A stretch of 33,284 bases of DNA, from contig CALGNN010000237.1 in the NCBI GenBank assembly GCA_937961455.1, positions 1 through 33,284 of the forward strand. The letters run 5' to 3'. How positions within the stretch are numbered: the first letter of the stretch is position 1; each line of letters begins with the position of its first letter. Below, piece by piece: positions 2,608 through 12,391 of the stretch. The notes below the pieces were generated by a model. It did no database searches and had not been told where the DNA came from. It saw only the letters and a list, made by a program, of their open reading frames with translations. The stretch is from an uncultured Saprospiraceae bacterium (GTDB lineage: Bacteria > Bacteroidota > Bacteroidia > Chitinophagales > Saprospiraceae). Made by a program: the position numbers and the translations under genes.

Positions 2608-3780
2608 CTAGCAAAACACAAACTCGGGAATTGTCCTACTGCAATGGCCTGACCACATACTCAATGTATTAGCACCAGTATTGTACAAAAACAACTTATC
2701 TCCTTCTTCGATCTCAGTGAGTTTGATGTCTCTCATTAAGACATCTCCTGCAAAACATAGGGGACCTACAATATTATAGCTTTTCTCTTTTCTTGGACTT
2801 GCAGAAGGAGTAGCATGAAGGACTGTACAGGGATATTCAATGTCTAAATCTGAATATACCTTACGAACAAATAAATCCGCGCCTACATGAATGAATACGG
2901 TTTCAGCTAAGTCAGCTGCATTTGAAATTACATACTCAACATGAGAAACCACAAAGCTGTTTTGCTTGTGAATGAAATTGCCGTATTCCGTTATAAGTTT
3001 AAACTCTTGAATGTTTGGAATTTGAACTAAAGATTTAACAAAAGCTTCCATGCGCTCTTGGTCGAATTCAATTCCTCCTCCGATATCTAAAGTCGCTATT
3101 TGGTTGGATATTCCTTTTTCTCTCCTTTTGGTATTTATTTCAAAAGCTAATGTCGCTACTTTAGAAATGGCTTCAATATTAGGAGAAAGATCTGTCAGAT
3201 TAGATCCTATGTGAAAATGTAAGCAACTGATCGATTCGTATTGGAGGCAATGATCAATAATATCTTGCCTTTTAGTTATGGGGACACCAAACTTAGAATT
3301 GGCCGTCGCTACATTGAAAAAAGCTCCACCTGAATTATTGACCAAAGGATTGATCCTTAGCCCAATTCTTCCATTAAAATTTTCAGGATAGCGGGAGAGT
3401 TCTTCAAGTGCGTTTGCATTTAATAGTATACCAGGGAAGTCATTATGACATTGCAATATTTCGTTCCTAGTTTTCACAGGAGAATCAAATACAATTTTAT
3501 CATTTGCGATACCTGCTTCTTTAGCTAGTAAAACTTCTTCGAATGAGGCAGCTTCTAAACCAAATCCTCTTTCTACAATATGCTTGAGCACCTTTGGATG
3601 ATTGCAGGTCTTAATGGCAATGGCATGCATCGTCTGCTCTGGGAATGTATTTTTTAAAATATTTAGTTGATGATCCAAGGCATCCTTAGAATAGAATACA
3701 ACTGCTTTATCAGAAGAACAAATACCTCTGTTAATAGCGTCTGTATAATATGCTTTAGCTACTTGTTTGGATATCTTCAT
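2608..3780 (-). CDS. Fold-type-III PLP-dependent decarboxylase (diaminopimelate/ornithine decarboxylase-like)
   Basis: A 390-residue alanine-racemase-fold PLP enzyme. The Schiff-base lysine is Lys57 in AIKTCNHP. LHFHIGS (187-193) carries the His that stacks on the cofactor, the glycine-rich phosphate loop is DIGGG (232-236), and GPLCFAGDVL (339-348) carries the Cys342 typical of DAP/ornithine/carboxynorspermidine decarboxylases. The usual EPGR phosphate-binding motif reads EYGN (265-268), so substrate handling may differ from housekeeping LysA. It overlaps the upstream PLP-enzyme gene by 26 nt, which implies translational coupling. In this setting it probably decarboxylates an amino-acid-derived intermediate of a specialised pathway. 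Exact substrate unknown. Confidence 0.8.
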   Translation of the reverse strand: MKISKQVAKAYYTDAINRGICSSDKAVVFYSKDALDHQLNILKNTFPEQTMHAIAIKTCNHPKVLKHIVERGFGLEAASFEEVLLAKEAGIANDKIVFDSPVKTRNEILQCHNDFPGILLNANALEELSRYPENFNGRIGLRINPLVNNSGGAFFNVATANSKFGVPITKRQDIIDHCLQYESISCLHFHIGSNLTDLSPNIEAISKVATLAFEINTKRREKGISNQIATLDIGGGIEFDQERMEAFVKSLVQIPNIQEFKLITEYGNFIHKQNSFVVSHVEYVISNAADLAETVFIHVGADLFVRKVYSDLDIEYPCTVLHATPSASPRKEKSYNIVGPLCFAGDVLMRDIKLTEIEEGDKLFLYNTGANTLSMWSGHCSRTIPEFVFC

Positions 3781-5200
3781 AATGTGTTGTCAAGTTCGTT
3801 GAAAGAATATCTATTATCTTTTTATCCAGTTCAAAATCCACTTCGTCATTCTTCACAAAATTTCGGATGTTCATCGAGCCAATTGCCACACGCAAAAAGG
3901 ACTTGTCATTAAAATAGGTAACAGGCTGTCCAATAAAAATCATAGATCGTCCTTTACCTAAATTATCATAAATTTTTGTCGCGGTCAAATAATGCAATTT
4001 TTTAAGTGCCTGCTCATCAAGGTAGACACCTTTATATTTAACTCGAAAGGAGATGATGGTTTTATTGGTATTTTCTTGATAAGGCATCAGTTCGAATTCT
4101 TCGCGGTCTTGCAAAAAACTAAAAACGGCATTTCTCCAAGCATCAATTTTCTCTTGAACCACTTCCCTCGGAATAGCATTAAATTTGCTAATCTCTGCAA
4201 GGGTGTATTGCCACCTAAGAATTCGGGCAGGGTTGATTTTTTCTTTGAGTCCTATTTTTTTTCTTAGAATAGGAGGGAAGTCATATGATGAAAAAACGGA
4301 ACTAAATTCTTCAATGATTTCTGGTTTTGCATTTTCTGAAATTCGATTGAAAATATCTTTAGGTATTAAAACGGCTGCGCAAAAAGGAGGGCTCTGATAA
4401 AACTTTGATCCCGTAATCATTACCGTTGATTTTTTCTGAATCAAATTACCAATCACAGCTTTGCTGTGTCTAAATTGGCAAAGGTCCGTATTCCAAAAAA
4501 TATTATCCCCTTGAATTTTGTCAATGAGTTCTAAATTATCTTCGATTCCTGACTTGCTTCCATATACCAGATTTATAATAATAGTATGGTCGGGATGTTT
4601 TTTAACCAATTCAATTATTTCATCTTGGTTATTTAGAATATCTCCCGTTTCAGATCGTGCACGATAAAAATAAGTTTCAATATCGTTTTGATCTAGAATG
4701 CTTTCTCCCTTTGTTACTTTTTCACCAAATTGATTATGATGCGCATAGTAATTTCCTTTAGCTGCTAATTGAGTTCCAGAACCTAACTCCTCAATACAAG
4801 TCGTGATATTAAGGATTTTTCTTTTTGGGTTGATAAGTTTAGAAATGATTAGTGGGATATAAACTAAATCTGTTCCAGATGGAGCAAGACATAATTCAAA
4901 CTTATCTTGATCGTCTTTATTGATAAGCGATTTTATCTGATCAAAAATTAAATCATTTTGAGTGATCCAATCAGATGCACTTTTACATGAACGATACATC
5001 TCTTTCATCAACTCAAAATTCTCTCCCGTTACAACGGTGCAGGTGCAGGAACCTCTATTTATGATTTGATCATTTACTAATTGGACGCCATACTTAGTGA
5101 GCCCTTTTTCATTGGTGAAAATTCTTTCGTCGGCACCTTGAGAAAGTAATTGTATTAAGTCTTCATCTTCGCTATTTATCCTCATATCTGAATTACTCAC
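3755..5200 (-). CDS. Fold-type-I PLP-dependent enzyme of unknown reaction
   Basis: A 481-residue soluble protein with the architecture of an aminotransferase/cysteine-desulfurase-like PLP enzyme. APSGTDL (106-112) fits the phosphate-binding turn, Asp239 in WNTDLCQ should pair with the pyridine nitrogen, and Lys266 in TGSKFY is the probable Schiff-base lysine. I do not recognise a named family; transamination, decarboxylation or C-S chemistry cannot be separated by eye. The frame starts with GTG at 5200, overlapping the upstream TGA in the four bases GTGA; an in-frame ATG at 5185 is the alternative. The 3' end overlaps the decarboxylase gene by 26 nt. The sandwich position between an AsnB-like ligase and a decarboxylase implies a shared substrate. 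Confidence 0.75.
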   Translation of the reverse strand: MSNSDMRINSEDEDLIQLLSQGADERIFTNEKGLTKYGVQLVNDQIINRGSCTCTVVTGENFELMKEMYRSCKSASDWITQNDLIFDQIKSLINKDDQDKFELCLAPSGTDLVYIPLIISKLINPKRKILNITTCIEELGSGTQLAAKGNYYAHHNQFGEKVTKGESILDQNDIETYFYRARSETGDILNNQDEIIELVKKHPDHTIIINLVYGSKSGIEDNLELIDKIQGDNIFWNTDLCQFRHSKAVIGNLIQKKSTVMITGSKFYQSPPFCAAVLIPKDIFNRISENAKPEIIEEFSSVFSSYDFPPILRKKIGLKEKINPARILRWQYTLAEISKFNAIPREVVQEKIDAWRNAVFSFLQDREEFELMPYQENTNKTIISFRVKYKGVYLDEQALKKLHYLTATKIYDNLGKGRSMIFIGQPVTYFNDKSFLRVAIGSMNIRNFVKNDEVDFELDKKIIDILSTNLTTHYEDIQTSS

Positions 5201-6657
5201 CTAAATCTCGTTGATATTTTTTTATAAATATTATAAATACCCATTTTTTTACTCAAGACTATTAGTTCTTTTTTCAGATTTGGGTTGACCTCAAATTCAT
5301 TTAGCTCAGGAAACTGTGCAGCGATATACGCTTTGTAAAATGTATGTCTTTGTTTATCTCGATATTTTCTTGGTATACTTAAAACCGTTTTAATAACCAA
5401 TCTACAATTGAAAGGAGAAAAGGTTTTAGTAGTAAAGGAGCGAAGCATAATCCCTGCTCCTGCAAAGTTAGTGATGTCTTGCTCCCAATGAATTAAATCG
5501 GCTAAATCATAATCAAATTGGTCTTGAATATGCTTCATCTCATCATATACTTTTTGAAAGTGATCTACCGTATATGTCATCACGGGAAAGTGTGCGGCTT
5601 GAGAGAGGGATTTTCCGTCAGAAATATTCACAGAGTCATAATAGTTTTTACAAATTTCACTCACACTACCAATAAGGATTAATTGATCGGGACTTTTAAA
5701 TCTTGAAAAAGGACCAAGGATATTAAACAAGTTTGATTGGTTCAACCAAGTAAATGAATCCATAGCATTTTGCTGCTCTTCTTCAGTTAGTAAAACTTCA
5801 CGCTCGTATATTTTGTATGTGAGCCCTAGTTTCTTACAAATCTTCTGAGGTATCTGAATGTCGTAGTGAGAATGTTTAAAAGGAGGTTTCGTTACTGTAA
5901 AGTATTCTGTATTGTGACGATGTTTTTTAGTGAAGGCAAGAACCATTCTACTATCCCAACCACCTGTCAAAGTACATCTAATTTGATATTTGCGATAAGC
6001 GGCATCCATACAATTCGAGGTGTATGTGTGTACTTTTTCAATAGCCGTTTCTAAATCAATAGCTTCTTTTTTAGCTCTAGGGAAATATCGATTTATAGTA
6101 TTTGCATTGACAAGCAAACTGTGATTTGGAATCACTTGTTGGACATCTTCATATATAGCGTGCTTTCCTAGTCGAACTAAATTCTTTTTGAAAAATTCAC
6201 TTTGGTAAAAGGCTATGCTTTCGGCTTTCTTGCTTTTTTGTAAAGGAAAGTGCTCATGGATTATTGCAGGATCAGGTCCTACAGCAAGGCACACGTTATT
6301 TGGAGCATAGCTAAACATTTTGAATACTCCAGCGGGATCATGGTAAAGTTCTAAAACACCATGTGTTTCCTTCATTAAAAGATAATTGCCACATAGCGCA
6401 TCTAAATAATCTAGGAACGCCGTCTTATCAGCTGGAGCTGAAAGTAGAATTTCTTCCTCGTCTAAATCTGGTTTTAATACATGAAAACAAAATCCGAGAA
6501 GCACCAGCTTACTATCATTATTTTCAAATTGAAAAACCTTTAAATTGGGGGAGGTATAAAGTGTATAATCTTTAAATTCTATTATTGACCAAGTATGATC
6601 AAGATGGGAGTCATGATTATTTTTAAGTAGAATATATTGATGAGAAAATTTTTCCAT
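5197..6657 (-). CDS. Asparagine-synthetase-like ATP-dependent amide ligase without glutaminase cysteine
   Basis: A 486-residue protein with an AsnB-type synthetase domain. The ATP pyrophosphatase PP-loop is LTGGWDSR (230-237), followed by QIPQKICKKLGL and an IGSVSE segment near 329-334 that corresponds to the family's second conserved motif. The first 170 residues resemble a remnant N-terminal Ntn domain (YHDPAGVFKMFSY near 105-117 parallels RDRFGIKPLYY) but there is no Cys2, so it should not hydrolyse glutamine. Beta-lactam synthetase and carbapenam synthetase are known family members that lost the glutaminase and make amides from bound amines; an analogous intramolecular or small-amine ligation is inferred here. 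It is the first gene of a three-gene block and joins the next gene by a GTGA overlap. Confidence 0.8.
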   Translation of the reverse strand: MEKFSHQYILLKNNHDSHLDHTWSIIEFKDYTLYTSPNLKVFQFENNDSKLVLLGFCFHVLKPDLDEEEILLSAPADKTAFLDYLDALCGNYLLMKETHGVLELYHDPAGVFKMFSYAPNNVCLAVGPDPAIIHEHFPLQKSKKAESIAFYQSEFFKKNLVRLGKHAIYEDVQQVIPNHSLLVNANTINRYFPRAKKEAIDLETAIEKVHTYTSNCMDAAYRKYQIRCTLTGGWDSRMVLAFTKKHRHNTEYFTVTKPPFKHSHYDIQIPQKICKKLGLTYKIYEREVLLTEEEQQNAMDSFTWLNQSNLFNILGPFSRFKSPDQLILIGSVSEICKNYYDSVNISDGKSLSQAAHFPVMTYTVDHFQKVYDEMKHIQDQFDYDLADLIHWEQDITNFAGAGIMLRSFTTKTFSPFNCRLVIKTVLSIPRKYRDKQRHTFYKAYIAAQFPELNEFEVNPNLKKELIVLSKKMGIYNIYKKISTRFR

Positions 6658-6762: not shown

Positions 6763-8649
6763 TTAATATGCTCTGACATCTTTTTTCTCCATGTAATTAA
6801 TGAAGGCTGTATTTGCTACACGATTTCCTCCAGGAGTCGGATAGTTTCCTGAAAAATACCAATCACCAGTATGCTTTGGACAAGACTTATGCAAGCCTTC
6901 TATCGTTTGATAGATGATTTGAACTGGGATATTTAAATCTGGAGGTGTTAATATTTTTGCGATCTGATCTGATACTTCTTCGTAGCTGTAATGATCATAA
7001 AGCGATTGAACTGCATTTTTTATTTCCCCACGTTCTTTTTCATTTTCTATTTTGCATCGCTCATAGGTTTCATCAAGCAGATATTCTTTTCCATCTCTCT
7101 CCAACAAAGAAACCAAAGCACGGAAGGCTGCAAAATTTTTCATTTTAGACATGTCGATTCCGTAACAATCAGGATATCTAATCTGAGGAGCTGTAGACAC
7201 AACGATAACCTTTTTAGGAAACAATCTTGAAACAATTCTAATGATGCTGTTTTTCAAAGTTGTGCCTCTTACAATGGAATCATCAATTAGTACTAAAGTA
7301 TCTTTTTCGTTATTTACAATTCCATAGGTGACATCGTAAACGTTTCCAACCATCTCATGTCTCGTGGCTGCATCTGCAATAAAGGTCCTCATCTTGGCAT
7401 CTTTGATAGCCAATTTTTCTATTCGAGGTCTTATGGCAAGGAGTTCTTGAATTTCATTTTTATTCAATTCTTTTCCTTCCATTTTTTCAGCACGCTTTTC
7501 ATCATTGATCTTGTGTAATTCATCGATCAAGCCATAAAAAGAAGACTCAGCTGTATTAGGAACAAAGGTGAAAACCGTATTTTTAAAATCGTAGTCTACT
7601 GATTTTAAAATAGAATGGGCTAAGTTTTTCCCTAGCTTTTTTCTTTCATCATAGATCTCTTTATCGTTGCCTCTTGAAAAATAGATTCTTTCAAAAGAGC
7701 AAGATTTATTCTCTTTGGGATCTATGCAATTTTTTTCTACTATATGACCATTATGTTTTATGATCAGTGCATTTCCTCTTCCTACCTCTTTAATATTTTT
7801 AAATCTAACATCGAATGCAGTCATAATTGCAGGACGCTCTGAAGCCATGACTACTACTTCATCATCGTGATAATAATATGCAGGTCGAATACCATTCGGA
7901 TCTCTTAAGACAAAGGCGTCACCAAAGCCAACCATTCCTCCCCAAACAAATCCTCCATCAAATTTTCTTGCAGCTCTTCTTAATATCCTTTGGATGTCTA
8001 AATGATTAAATATCTGTTGATTAATCTCTACGTTGCTCATACCTTCTGCCTTAAACCAATTGAAGAGTCTTTGCACTTCATCATCCAGAAAATGTCCAAT
8101 TTTTTCCAGCACCAATACCGTGTCAGATTTTTCTTTGGGAAATTGTCCAAGTTCAACGAGTTCTTGAAAAAGCTCATCGTTATTAGTCAGATTAAAATTA
8201 CCTGCCATAAGAAGCGATCTTGAGATGTAGTTATTTTGTCTCAAGAAAGGATGAACTGTTTCTATAGAATTGTAACCATGTGTGCCATACCGTAAGTGCC
8301 CCATTAAAAGTTCACCAGTATAAGGCTTGTTGAGTTTTAACCAAGCAGGATCATTTAATTTTTCTTCTGGGAGATCTTCAAAATGTTCAAATACATTTGA
8401 AAAGAGATGTCTCAAATAAGCAGTATCATTTGAACGTTTTCTACTTATGTATCTTGTGCCTGGAGGCATATTGAGTTTGATGGTGGCAATTCCAGCACCA
8501 TCTTGTCCTCGGTTACGCATCTTTTGCATAAGTAATTGCATCTTATGTATGCCATAAAGTGCTGTTCCGTATTTATCCAAATAAAAATCTAGCGGTTTGA
8601 GTAGACGGATCATTGCTAATCCGCATTCGTGCTGTATATGGTCACTCAT
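6763..8649 (-). CDS. purF: Amidophosphoribosyltransferase, long Bacteroidota form
   Basis: Transfers the amide nitrogen of glutamine to PRPP, the first step of purine synthesis. The class-II glutaminase domain starts at Cys9 (EC9GLA) after a short propeptide, with RNRGQDGAGI (45-54) and GHLRYGTHG (117-125). The phosphoribosyltransferase domain has the PRPP loop VLIDDSIVRGTT (453-464) and APQIRYPDCYGIDM (487-500). At 628 residues it is over 100 longer than the usual 470-510. The extra length is a lysine/glutamate-rich insert near 380-415 and a C-terminal extension with CPKHTGDWYF. An extended paralogue of PurF is common in this phylum, and whether this copy is the purine enzyme cannot be settled here. 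It has its own promoter upstream. Confidence 0.85.
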   Translation of the reverse strand: MSDHIQHECGLAMIRLLKPLDFYLDKYGTALYGIHKMQLLMQKMRNRGQDGAGIATIKLNMPPGTRYISRKRSNDTAYLRHLFSNVFEHFEDLPEEKLNDPAWLKLNKPYTGELLMGHLRYGTHGYNSIETVHPFLRQNNYISRSLLMAGNFNLTNNDELFQELVELGQFPKEKSDTVLVLEKIGHFLDDEVQRLFNWFKAEGMSNVEINQQIFNHLDIQRILRRAARKFDGGFVWGGMVGFGDAFVLRDPNGIRPAYYYHDDEVVVMASERPAIMTAFDVRFKNIKEVGRGNALIIKHNGHIVEKNCIDPKENKSCSFERIYFSRGNDKEIYDERKKLGKNLAHSILKSVDYDFKNTVFTFVPNTAESSFYGLIDELHKINDEKRAEKMEGKELNKNEIQELLAIRPRIEKLAIKDAKMRTFIADAATRHEMVGNVYDVTYGIVNNEKDTLVLIDDSIVRGTTLKNSIIRIVSRLFPKKVIVVSTAPQIRYPDCYGIDMSKMKNFAAFRALVSLLERDGKEYLLDETYERCKIENEKERGEIKNAVQSLYDHYSYEEVSDQIAKILTPPDLNIPVQIIYQTIEGLHKSCPKHTGDWYFSGNYPTPGGNRVANTAFINYMEKKDVRAY

Positions 8650-9051: not shown

Positions 9052-10836
9052 ATGGCTGATATCATTCAGCTTTTACCAGATGCTATTGCAAATCAAATTG
9101 CTGCGGGTGAAGTCATTCAGCGGCCTGCTTCTGTCGTAAAAGAACTCATGGAAAATGCCATTGATGCGGGCAGCACCAAGGTTCAGCTAATTATAAAAGA
9201 TGCTGGAAAGAGTCTGATCCAAGTCACTGATAATGGGAAAGGGATGTCCGACACTGATGCTCGAATGAGTTTTGAACGGCACGCTACTTCAAAGATTAAA
9301 AAGGCAGAAGATCTATTCAGTATTTCTACTAAAGGATTTAGAGGAGAAGCTTTAGCTTCTATTGCAGCAGTAGCTCAGGTAGAAATGGAAACCCGTCTTG
9401 CAGACAATGATTACGGGTCTAAAATCATCATTGAAGCTTCAGAGGTGCATTCGCAAGAAATATGCTCAATGGAAGTTGGCACAAAACTGAGTGTCAAGAA
9501 TTTATTTTTTAATATACCAGCTAGAAGAAAATTCTTAAAGTCTGACCCTGTTGAATTGAAACACATCTTGGATGAATTCAAAAGAATTGCCATAGCACAT
9601 CCTGAAATTAAATTTGTTCTTTATAATAATGGGAAAGAACTTTTTCATTTGGTCCCAGGCAATTTAAAAAAACGCATCTTAGGAATTTTTGGAAAAGCCT
9701 ACGAAAGTAAAATTATCAAGATTGATGAAGAAACAGAGATGTTGGATATCAGTGGCTTTGTAGGAAAACCAGAAGCTTCTAAAAAAGGATCAGGGGATCA
9801 ATATTTAATTGTAAACAAAAGATTTATTAAAAGTGCTTATCTGAATCACGCCATTCGAAATGCATTTCAAGAGCTTATCCCTAAAGAAAATTATCCTTTT
9901 TATGTAATTCAATTAGATATAGATCCAGCAAGCATCGATATCAATGTACATCCAACTAAGCAGGAAATAAAATTCCAAGAAGAACGAATCATATACAATT
10001 TTTTAAAGGCTGGAGTAAAACATGCACTAGGACAATTTTATGTAGTGCCCGCTATTGACTTTGAAAATGCTTCCTCTCCTTACACCAGAGATTTAGGTTA
10101 TAAACCAGAGCGTAGTTTTTCTGGCCAATCCAATGCTAGAATAGATTTTAAAGCCAATCAGGCTAAGGTAAAAAACTGGGAAAAACTATTTGAAGGGGTT
10201 GCAGCTTTTTCTGTCGAAGCAGAGCCAGAAGCAGAAGAAACAAAAAAACTCATTGAGGATGATTTCTCCATGAGACCTTATCAATTGCATAAGCAGTTTA
10301 TCATTTGCCATACAAGAGACGGCATGTTGATTGTTGATCAACAATATGCGCATGAACGCATTCTCTACGAATCAAGTCTAGCGACAGACCAAGACAAAAA
10401 CTTTGCAGTTCAGAAATTGTTATTTCCTGAGAATATCGAGTTAGAGACTTCGGATGTGCATATGATGAATGAAATTCTAGAAGAACTTAAAAGATTGGGT
10501 TTTGACATTGCACACTTTGGAGACAATCATTTTGTTTTACATGGCGTTCCAGTTATTGCAGGAGAAGACCAGAATGGAAAAGCCCTCATTTTAGATTTTA
10601 TTCGACAATTTAAAGAAGAGTTGGATACCAATTTAGGTTTACAAGAACGTGTGGCTAAAGTATATGCTAAGAGTCTAACTATTAAGAGAGGTGCAGTATT
10701 AACCAATGAAGAAATGGAAGATTTGCTTGCCAGACTTTTTAGTTGTACAACACCTTATGTAAACCCAGATGGGAAAAAATGTTTTATTGAATATAATCTT
10801 GAAGATTTACAATCACAATTTAGAAATTTTAGTTAA
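9052..10836 (+). CDS. mutL: DNA mismatch repair protein MutL
   Basis: A 594-residue mismatch repair ATPase that links MutS recognition to strand incision and repair. The N-terminal GHKL ATPase has ELMENAIDAG (31-40), DNGKGM (60-65) and GFRGEAL (95-101), followed by NVHPTK (298-303) of the S5-like domain, a variable linker (about 335-405), and the C-terminal dimerisation domain. The endonuclease motif DQHA-x2-E-x4-E of nuclease-type MutL reads DQQYAHERILYE (429-440): the metal-ligand His is Gln. The zinc-site CPHGRP segment near the C-terminus reads VNPDGKKC. Nicking activity may therefore be weak or absent, as seems to hold in some other Bacteroidota. The stop codon overlaps the next ATG (TAATG). 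Confidence 0.95.
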   Translation: MADIIQLLPDAIANQIAAGEVIQRPASVVKELMENAIDAGSTKVQLIIKDAGKSLIQVTDNGKGMSDTDARMSFERHATSKIKKAEDLFSISTKGFRGEALASIAAVAQVEMETRLADNDYGSKIIIEASEVHSQEICSMEVGTKLSVKNLFFNIPARRKFLKSDPVELKHILDEFKRIAIAHPEIKFVLYNNGKELFHLVPGNLKKRILGIFGKAYESKIIKIDEETEMLDISGFVGKPEASKKGSGDQYLIVNKRFIKSAYLNHAIRNAFQELIPKENYPFYVIQLDIDPASIDINVHPTKQEIKFQEERIIYNFLKAGVKHALGQFYVVPAIDFENASSPYTRDLGYKPERSFSGQSNARIDFKANQAKVKNWEKLFEGVAAFSVEAEPEAEETKKLIEDDFSMRPYQLHKQFIICHTRDGMLIVDQQYAHERILYESSLATDQDKNFAVQKLLFPENIELETSDVHMMNEILEELKRLGFDIAHFGDNHFVLHGVPVIAGEDQNGKALILDFIRQFKEELDTNLGLQERVAKVYAKSLTIKRGAVLTNEEMEDLLARLFSCTTPYVNPDGKKCFIEYNLEDLQSQFRNFS

Positions 10837-11465
10837 TGCCTAGGATTACGGATGTAGTTAAGAATCTGTTGATATTAAATGTGCTCATGTACTTTGGAAC
10901 CTATTATTTGATGGGAGACAATAGGTATACCTTAGCCATGTTTTATCCAAATGCCGATTATGATTTTTTTAGGCCTTACCAAATTGTCACACACATGTTT
11001 ATGCATGGTGGTACCACTCACTTGTTATTTAACATGTTTGCTTTATACATGTTTGGTTCTGCTGTAGAGACAAGATTTGGACCCAAACGGTTTTTGTTAT
11101 ATTATTTTGTGACAGGATTTGGAGCTTTGGCTTTATATCTATTTGTCAAATATCTTGAAATCAATGTAATCAACACAGGAGTAAATGCGCACGATCTATA
11201 TAGAACCCCTATGCTTGGAGCAAGCGGCGCGGTTTTTGGTTTATTAGCAGCATTTGGAATGTTATTCCCAAATGCGATTATTACATTGATCATTCCGCCC
11301 ATCCCAATGAAAGCTAAATATTTTGTTCTGATCTATGCCGTTCTAGAGTTATTTCTTGGGGTGAGTAGATTTGATACAGGTATTGCACACTTTGCACATT
11401 TAGGAGGAGCCTTATTTGGCTTCTTGCTAATATTATATTGGAAAAAAACAGGAAATTTAGTTTAA
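10836..11465 (+). CDS. Rhomboid family intramembrane serine protease
   Basis: A 209-residue polytopic membrane protein with about six hydrophobic helices. The rhomboid hallmarks are complete: the HGGTTHLLFN motif in helix 2 (57-66), the catalytic Ser130 in GASGAVFG, and the catalytic His188 in AHFAHLGG. It should cleave substrate transmembrane segments within the inner membrane; the substrate is not known. It starts on the last base of the mutL stop codon and is followed by a second rhomboid gene after 5 nt, so the two form a translationally linked tandem. Confidence 0.92.
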   Translation: MPRITDVVKNLLILNVLMYFGTYYLMGDNRYTLAMFYPNADYDFFRPYQIVTHMFMHGGTTHLLFNMFALYMFGSAVETRFGPKRFLLYYFVTGFGALALYLFVKYLEINVINTGVNAHDLYRTPMLGASGAVFGLLAAFGMLFPNAIITLIIPPIPMKAKYFVLIYAVLELFLGVSRFDTGIAHFAHLGGALFGFLLILYWKKTGNLV

Positions 11466-11470
11466 GCATT

Positions 11471-12391
11471 ATGTTTAATTCAGTTTATGAAGATATGAGG
11501 CAAATGTTTCGGTCAGGTCACATGATCAACCGACTCATCATCATCAATGTGGTGATGTTTATCTTACTTCATATTGGTGCGATTGTAGTTGGGATGTCAA
11601 GTACCACTACGCATGAAGTTGCTCATAATTTGGTGACTGAATATTTTGCTATATCTAGAGATTTGTGGTTTGATATTACGCATCCTTGGGTGATCATTAC
11701 ACATATGTTTACCCATCAGGGTTTCCTACATATTCTTTTCAATTTATTATGGCTCTATTGGTTTGGAATTATTGTTGGAGATCTCATTGGCGATAAACAC
11801 ATCCTTCCACTTTATATATTAGGGGGTCTTGCAGGAGCATTGGTTTATTTTATTGTTGCCCAATGGTTATATCCAGAAGGTAGCATAGCCATTGGAGCTT
11901 CAGCGGCAGTCATGTCCACCGCAGTCGCTGCAGCAAGTATTAATCCTGACCATAATATGCGACTACTTTTGCTTGGAAATATTCGAATAAAATACATCGT
12001 GCTAGCGCTTTTAATTTTTGATATTATCGCCATTTCAAATCAGACGAATGCAGGAGGACATTTTGCTCATCTAGGTGGCGCTTTCTTTGGGTGGTTTTAT
12101 ATTAAAATGTTGAATGAAGGACAAGACCTTTCTATTGGTATTAATGGGACTATTGAATCCATTACAAATTTTTTCAGGAAGAAGCCTCAAAAGTCACCAC
12201 TAAGGGTCGTCAAAAAAGAAAAAGTATTTACTACATCCAAGGACCAAAAGCAAAAGAAGAATAAAAACATGAAGGTGGTCCAAAGTGACCAAGAAAAGCT
12301 AGATGCTATTTTAGATAAAATTAGTACATCGGGAATGGATAGCCTGAGTGCAGAAGAAAAAGAATTTTTACAAAATCTTAGTAAGAATTGA
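11471..12391 (+). CDS. Second rhomboid family protease with a C-terminal cytoplasmic tail
   Basis: A 306-residue protein with a rhomboid core and a hydrophilic tail. The helix-2 motif (HQGFLHILFN, 82-91), Ser144 in GASAAV and His200 in GGHFAHLGG are present, so the catalytic dyad is intact, but the usual glycine after the serine (GxSG) is alanine here. After residue 215 there is a basic linker and then a helical segment, KLDAILDKIS..SLSAEEKEFL (276-300), of a kind often found at the end of Bacteroidota rhomboids. The ATG at 11471 is preferred to an upstream TTG at 11438, which would overlap the previous gene by 28 nt. The stop codon overlaps the next start. Confidence 0.88.
   Translation: MFNSVYEDMRQMFRSGHMINRLIIINVVMFILLHIGAIVVGMSSTTTHEVAHNLVTEYFAISRDLWFDITHPWVIITHMFTHQGFLHILFNLLWLYWFGIIVGDLIGDKHILPLYILGGLAGALVYFIVAQWLYPEGSIAIGASAAVMSTAVAAASINPDHNMRLLLLGNIRIKYIVLALLIFDIIAISNQTNAGGHFAHLGGAFFGWFYIKMLNEGQDLSIGINGTIESITNFFRKKPQKSPLRVVKKEKVFTTSKDQKQKKNKNMKVVQSDQEKLDAILDKISTSGMDSLSAEEKEFLQNLSKN

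Follow-up and report, generated by a model that had tools for sequence, protein, structure and literature searches.

Beta-lactam and carbapenam synthetases have an AsnB-like fold and carry out ATP-dependent amide formation without a glutaminase. Amide ligases also act on surface glycans. For capsule amidation in Campylobacter jejuni (Cj1435-Cj1438), the portions of two reports drawn on here describe a transaminase and a decarboxylase that supply small amine phosphates and an ATP-dependent ligase that couples them to the carboxylate of a uronic acid; the TupA-like ATP-grasp enzyme Cj1438C links glucuronic acid through an amide bond to serinol phosphate or ethanolamine phosphate (PMC11800379, PMC11800397). 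A portion of a third report describes WbpS, an AsnB-like enzyme that makes a uronamide; WbpS and WbqG, the uronamide synthases of the linking sugar of the Porphyromonas gingivalis type IX secretion system (T9SS), use a uronic acid substrate and adjoin glycan genes (PMC7468200). Here we describe three overlapping genes, A, B and C, that bear likeness to these systems. They lie on a 33,284-nucleotide (nt) stretch of contig CALGNN010000237.1 from an uncultured Saprospiraceae bacterium (GCA_937961455.1), hereafter the window.

The three genes are transcribed in the order A, B, C from the minus strand. Gene A (5197-6657, 486 amino acids), judged by its open reading frame (ORF) and its relatives, encodes an AsnB-like protein predicted to be an ATP-dependent amide ligase. 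Gene B (3755-5200, 481 amino acids, GTG start) encodes a pyridoxal phosphate (PLP) enzyme assigned to fold type I and to an uncatalogued family from its ORF, profile searches and a structure model. Gene C (2608-3780, 390 amino acids) encodes, by ORF call and by Pfam and NCBIfam searches, a fold III PLP decarboxylase of the ornithine/diaminopimelate (DAP) decarboxylase superfamily. The ORF calls agree with the initial annotation of this DNA, which had reported overlaps of 4 nt between A and B and of 26 nt between B and C. We tentatively suggest, at a little less than even likelihood, that B and C make an amine and that A joins this amine to a carboxylate, for which the likeliest candidate is a uronic acid within a surface glycan.

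The TupA-like ligase type of C. jejuni recurs beside B and C in one relative of the window (see below). The window itself differs from the C. jejuni system in having an AsnB-like ligase, a fold III decarboxylase and family B, and no phosphatase was found directly beside the trio in a profile scan that, within the window, was confined to the trio and its flanking genes. The WbpS amide, as given in the portion of the report cited above, is unsubstituted, whereas A has no glutaminase Cys and stands beside genes for enzymes predicted to make an amine. The locus may also differ from beta-lactam and carbapenam synthetases, the precedent named in the initial annotation: no lactam context was seen at the trio, and no beta-lactam synthetase was among the three profile matches of A to solved structures at E up to 1. 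Among the open-licence PMC papers in the matches listed, we found none on the gene trio or on family B.

B and C as a conserved pair

C lies directly behind B in 22 distinct genomes, and the two ORF calls overlap in 16 of them. ORF starts were taken mechanically, and B/C overlaps of 62 nt and 149 nt in relatives are probably start artefacts. B is present in 26 of the 398 genomes of the window's family, in one of which it is cut by a contig end. In 19 of the 25 assessable genomes C follows B, and in six it does not; G052, G377 and G396 raise the B-C total from 19 to 22. These counts exclude G454 (B cut by a contig end) and G313 (a fragment), and count L006/L096 (G571) and L007/L091 (G664) once each; L004 belongs to G052 and L005 to G033. 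B and C are thus not genes that mostly occur alone in relatives, the point on which the initial annotation had staked their linkage. Distances among B proteins follow those among C proteins (Mantel r 0.80, 0 of 2000 permutations), a correlation that may only mirror species kinship. Before B was aligned for this comparison, the G751 ORF was trimmed of its first 240 residues, a piece of a UDP-sugar dehydrogenase.

Other genomes place an unrelated decarboxylase with B. A single 1214-amino-acid protein in G097 (L033 6655-10299, minus strand) consists of a B-like domain fused to a group II PLP decarboxylase (PF00282). In G410 and G101 the B gene overlaps a group II decarboxylase gene, and on a Rhizobium tumorigenes plasmid the two overlap by 1 nt. 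On plasmids of Sinorhizobium medicae and Rhizobium jaguaris, B comes immediately after a giant gene for a nonribosomal peptide synthetase (NRPS) or a hybrid of NRPS and polyketide synthase (PKS), a position that suits an enzyme providing an amino acid. The B homologues at these two loci (L038 6950-8485 and L041 6953-8449) are annotated as hypothetical proteins only.

Judged by gene neighborhoods, the comparison shows B and C to be a conserved pair in which an unrelated decarboxylase can occupy the position of C. Because two unrelated decarboxylase folds and NRPS all take amino acids, B most likely makes an amino acid, and this product is probably then decarboxylated. That B and C act as one unit in one pathway is well supported by their adjacency, and for these two genes the single pathway proposed in the initial annotation stands.

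Gene B represents an uncatalogued PLP family

No Pfam or NCBIfam model matched B or any of 15 relatives (16/16) at an E value below 0.01, and none of the 16 matched PF00266 or a named class V aminotransferase subfamily at E 0.1. No solved relative was found by sequence, the best PDB profile matches (E 0.47 and up) being noise. The structure model of B (pLDDT 78, pTM 0.81) has fold type I. VIA-align placed AGT, AEP transaminase and NifS on top (Z 20.8-21.1), and its ten best matches cover 328-362 residues at a root-mean-square deviation of 3.7-4.4 Å. By this ranking the model of B is close to class V aminotransferases in fold, and its invariant Lys, Asp, Gln and C-terminal Arg, with roles by analogy, fit them; B differs from them in its 7-13% identity to those ten and in the missing class V Pfam match. 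Foldseek ranked an aromatic amino acid decarboxylase first (E 4e-10, TM 0.46) and 3-hydroxykynurenine transaminase second. Since the two rankings differ, the position of B inside fold type I is not firm, and candidate reactions include those of a transaminase, a beta-lyase or beta-replacement enzyme, an epimerase and a decarboxylase. On these profile searches B is a PLP family that has no Pfam or NCBIfam model, as the initial annotation had anticipated in calling it a fold-type-I enzyme of no recognised family.

Lys266 (4403-4405, minus strand), the predicted Schiff-base lysine in the motif TGSKF, is invariant in 16 of 16 and in 22 of 22 proteins compared. K266, D239, Q242 and R437 are all invariant across the 16 members, which come from Bacteroidota and rhizobial plasmids; with roles assigned by analogy, this is the pattern to be expected if B is a functional PLP enzyme that binds a carboxylate. 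The N-terminal parts of two long proteins (from L030 and L034) were left out of this alignment. Such long forms, of about 690-725 amino acids, occur at L107 8365-10473, L109 8854-10956, L030 7629-9701 and L034 7416-9593 and carry an additional N-terminal part of about 180-200 amino acids. The B genes of genus g60 (L024 8057-9511 and L025 8419-9873, plus strand) have a frame that is open upstream, with no ATG, GTG or TTG ahead of the conserved N-terminal part, and their start is either unusual or misread.

Beyond the window's family, B is present in 16 of the 395 genomes of a phylum sample and on 33 plasmid records, all from Rhizobium, Sinorhizobium or Neorhizobium. We opened five of these records, one of which came without annotation. 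Eight genomes of family f24 carry B; five of these neighborhoods were read, one of them ending just behind B. When genome contigs were searched, B alone retrieved no relative and an alignment of B retrieved four loci. Across Bacteroidota and rhizobial plasmids, the neighbors narrow the job of family B to supplying an amino acid for decarboxylation or for an NRPS, and this dark enzyme family thereby becomes directly testable with purified proteins.

Gene C is an altered relative of DAP and ornithine decarboxylases

C matches PF02784 and PF00278 at 97.2 and 35.2 bits, both above cut-off, and its best solved relatives are DAP decarboxylases. With DAP and ornithine decarboxylases it shares, besides the two Pfam domains, Lys57 (3610-3612, minus strand; the predicted Schiff-base lysine, in AIAIK), GGG and Cys342. 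It reaches only 162.4 and 165.1 bits in two scans against the LysA model TIGR01048, below the equivalog cut-off of 297.9, and falls under every other NCBIfam equivalog cut-off listed. C also differs from these enzymes in reading EYGN for EPGR, Phe or Tyr at the usual CE or CD, and HC for YN in the motif HCSR. Ornithine and DAP decarboxylases carry an acidic residue next to the catalytic Cys (CE or CD) that binds the distal amine; the corresponding residue is Phe or Tyr in 22 of 22 C proteins linked to B.

The EYGN motif (residues 265-268; 2977-2988, minus strand) had been described in the initial annotation, together with the decarboxylase-like character of C, and both hold. We rejected the idea that EYGN is a peculiarity of the window's protein: 17 of the 22 B-linked C proteins read E(Y/F)GR, and the remaining five have N (the window), Q, Q, A and A in place of Arg.

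A stretch near the C terminus, GANTLSMWSGHCSR (residues 369-382; 2635-2676, minus strand), is a signature of the B-linked C proteins. N371 is present in 21 of 22, and H379 and C380 are invariant, as are K57, C342, W376 and R382. In two C-like proteins, whose genomes lack a B match, the reading is GAY..YNSR in place of GAN..HCSR, so the altered stretch travels with B. The exception at N371 is G396, whose second C copy, about 20 kb from its B, still reads HC.

Gene A and the ligases beside the pair

The kinship of A to AsnB rests on one of its relatives. A itself scores 15.2 bits against the Pfam asparagine synthase model (PF00733; cut-off 21) and has no match to TIGR01536 at E 1. Its relative in G453, 31% identical to A, matches TIGR01536 (E 2e-11; 43.6 bits, below the cut-off of 267.1) only from profile position 101, and so lacks the beginning of the glutaminase domain. 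A contains the SGGxDS-like PP-loop ATP motif of the AsnB family as LTGGWDSR (residues 230-237; 5947-5970, minus strand), in which T231, G233, D235 and R237 are invariant in three aligned A proteins. The N-terminal domain is shortened, and the glutaminase catalytic Cys (Cys2) is absent from the first 10 residues.

Recovery of Cys2 through an upstream start, which the initial annotation had raised as a challenge to its view of A as an AsnB-family synthetase without this residue, was considered and rejected. No in-frame start adds a Cys: only two codons separate the ATG from an upstream stop (TGA TGC TCA ATG), and the Cys codon has no start codon ahead of it. With mechanically taken starts, Cys is likewise absent from the first 10 residues of three more A relatives (one partial) and of two AsnB-like neighbors of B-C, so glutaminase loss may be shared by A-like proteins. 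In A it would suggest that the amine used is not glutamine-derived ammonia.

A second copy of A in the window's own genome, G000, is apparently split across the ends of contigs C207 and C144 (L050 1-1050, minus strand; L051 1-321, plus strand). It adjoins genes that, named by eye, are UDP-sugar dehydrogenase-like, DegT-like and related to sulfate activation.

A ligase gene adjoins B-C or lies one gene away in five of the 22 genomes, AsnB-like in four and TupA-like in one. In the window, G453, G052 and G694, predicted amine-making enzymes and an amide ligase share one strand. The relative of A in G453 is separated from B-C by a sulfotransferase gene, and the AsnB-like gene of G052 follows C directly. 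The fifth ligase, in G396, is next to B-C and convergent with it, and this AsnB-like gene scores under the Pfam and NCBIfam cut-offs. The TupA-like ATP-grasp gene (PF14305, E 3e-52) follows C in G694, whose B is the closest to that of the window (46% identity) and which is the window's sister in both the B and C trees. It is the only PF14305 gene in the whole 4.7-Mb genome; such genes score above cut-off in two of the 22 B-C genomes, and none above cut-off stands beside the other 21 B-C pairs. We estimate the chance of a lone PF14305 gene falling into one of two neighbor slots among about 4,000 genes at roughly 1 in 2,000. As different ligases stand next to the same pair, amide formation is the best guess for the following step, and these five contexts fit the amide formation by a ligase without glutaminase that the initial annotation had proposed.

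Sulfotransferase genes (PF13469, PF00685) lie directly beside B-C at L048 1952-3067 (G453) and L004 8976-9923 (G052), and it is possible that sulfotransferases further modify the product in these two genomes.

Glycan genes around the pair

At least three glycan matches within 9 kb were found at 13 of the 22 B-C loci, a count that leans towards B-C since the glycan seed proteins were taken from these loci themselves. The strict count is 12 of 22, as two of the three matches of L098 are fragments of a single broken gene. The same threshold was reached at none of three C-like loci without a neighboring B, none of five f24 loci, none of three group II decarboxylase loci and none of four genus g276 loci with B alone, and at both genus g61 loci, where B is of the long form and C is absent.

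In six loci the gene immediately preceding B encodes a UDP-sugar dehydrogenase; in G751 the two are fused. The 709-amino-acid ORF at L097 8085-10214 (plus strand) comprises a UDP-sugar dehydrogenase piece (residues 9-212) followed by B (247-702) and is either a real fusion or an assembly error. A Wzi-like capsule assembly gene precedes UDP-sugar dehydrogenase and B in G033. In G639, B-C lies on one strand behind UDP-sugar dehydrogenase, hexapeptide and DegT matches and a MocA-like ORF, the last named by eye from its likeness to a profile-scanned ORF of L107. For part of the family, then, an acceptor in a glycan is likely; for the window it is plausible only.

The initial annotation had offered a lactam or polyamine as product. 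This part gained no support here, given the Phe or Tyr beside the catalytic Cys in all 22 C proteins and the 13 B-C loci among glycan genes; its B-C pathway and its ligase without glutaminase did, so that its interpretation as a whole is partly supported.

Proposed pathway and alternatives

In the pathway we propose, B would start from a common metabolite and turn it into an amino acid that is uncommon, and C would remove the carboxyl group of that amino acid to give an amine. A would activate a carboxylate with ATP and accept this amine instead of ammonia from glutamine. More weakly inferred, the carboxylate would be a uronic acid of a surface glycan and the product an N-substituted uronamide, comparable to those that Campylobacter forms from serinol phosphate and ethanolamine phosphate. 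Should this coupling step be right, it would be a further means of attaching amines to acidic sugars of the cell surface, in which an AsnB-like enzyme replaces the ATP-grasp ligase.

Several observations, along with the seed bias and the species kinship noted above, weigh against this pathway. As Foldseek ranks an aromatic amino acid decarboxylase first, B itself could be a decarboxylase. Neither type of decarboxylase lies near B in the six family genomes without C, in five f24 loci and in four of the five rhizobial loci examined. The structure prediction for A, made without relatives, gave an unusable model. The window and six other B-C loci have no glycan match within 9 kb. In G000, C is the only LysA-like protein, with no other TIGR01048 match, and DapF is present. 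Finally, 17 of the 22 B-C loci, one of which (G639) has a contig that stops just behind C, have no AsnB- or TupA-like neighbor, other ligase types not having been sought; A is thus not a fixed partner. Its membership in the B-C pathway, the remaining part of the single pathway proposed initially, is moderately supported.

These ligase-less loci would be expected if the B-C amine reached glycans or lipids in some other way, with the ligase neighbors being incidental, and AsnB-like matches are common in B-C genomes (one to eight each at E up to 0.1). Against this, the B tree spreads the five loci that have a ligase over at least three branches (branch supports not printed), and in the window, in G694 and in G396 the ligase has no glycan match around it, so a glycan-cluster background does not explain the ligase there. 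We consider an incidental ligase unlikely. It is rather unlikely that the trio, along the lines of the initial annotation, yields a free small molecule (an amide, a lactam or a siderophore-like compound) with no glycan acceptor. The two NRPS- or NRPS/PKS-linked B homologues of rhizobial plasmids, the weak profile matches of A relatives to lasso-peptide and macrolactam cyclases and the lack of glycan matches around the window's trio agree with such a product. The trio is, however, flanked by T9SS cargo and PurF-like genes rather than by NRPS, PKS or transport genes, most B-C loci lie among glycan genes, and the nearest relative has a TupA-like ligase.

C could also simply be the DAP decarboxylase of the host, with A and B as neighbors of another role. 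The lack of a second LysA in G000 and the solved relatives of C fit this idea, but lysA may be missing from G000, a 250-contig draft that is 96% complete, and seven of eight other B-C genomes tested hold a separate LysA above cut-off in addition to C (the exception is G396). With C also far below the LysA cut-off and HC and N371 marking the B-linked proteins, we regard this explanation as quite improbable. The boldest extension of the proposed amine coupling, and a very doubtful one, is that the trio supplies an N-substituted uronamide whose amine handle is a new type of linking sugar anchoring T9SS cargo, with B as the founder of a new PLP family that makes an unusual amino acid. Linking sugars differ between species, according to the portion of a report cited here (PMC11969387). 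The gene row that B-C closes in G639 resembles the P. gingivalis linking-sugar row, the A paralogue stands beside UDP-sugar dehydrogenase-like and DegT-like genes, and the start of a T9SS cargo gene is 33 nt beyond C. The presence of B in only 26 of 398 family genomes weighs against it.

Flanking genes

The T9SS type A cargo protein (PF18962; 1042-2574, minus strand), whose called start gives the 33-nt spacing, may be co-transcribed with the trio. On the other side, a PurF-like protein of 628 amino acids (6763-8649, minus strand; 121.6 bits against the TIGR01134 cut-off of 350) ends 105 nt before A. Promoter and terminator counts around the trio were no higher than in shuffled sequence, and the GC content of the trio resembles that of the surrounding DNA. 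Further along the window, two adjacent genes on the plus strand (10836-12391) encode proteins that, named by eye, are rhomboid protease-like.

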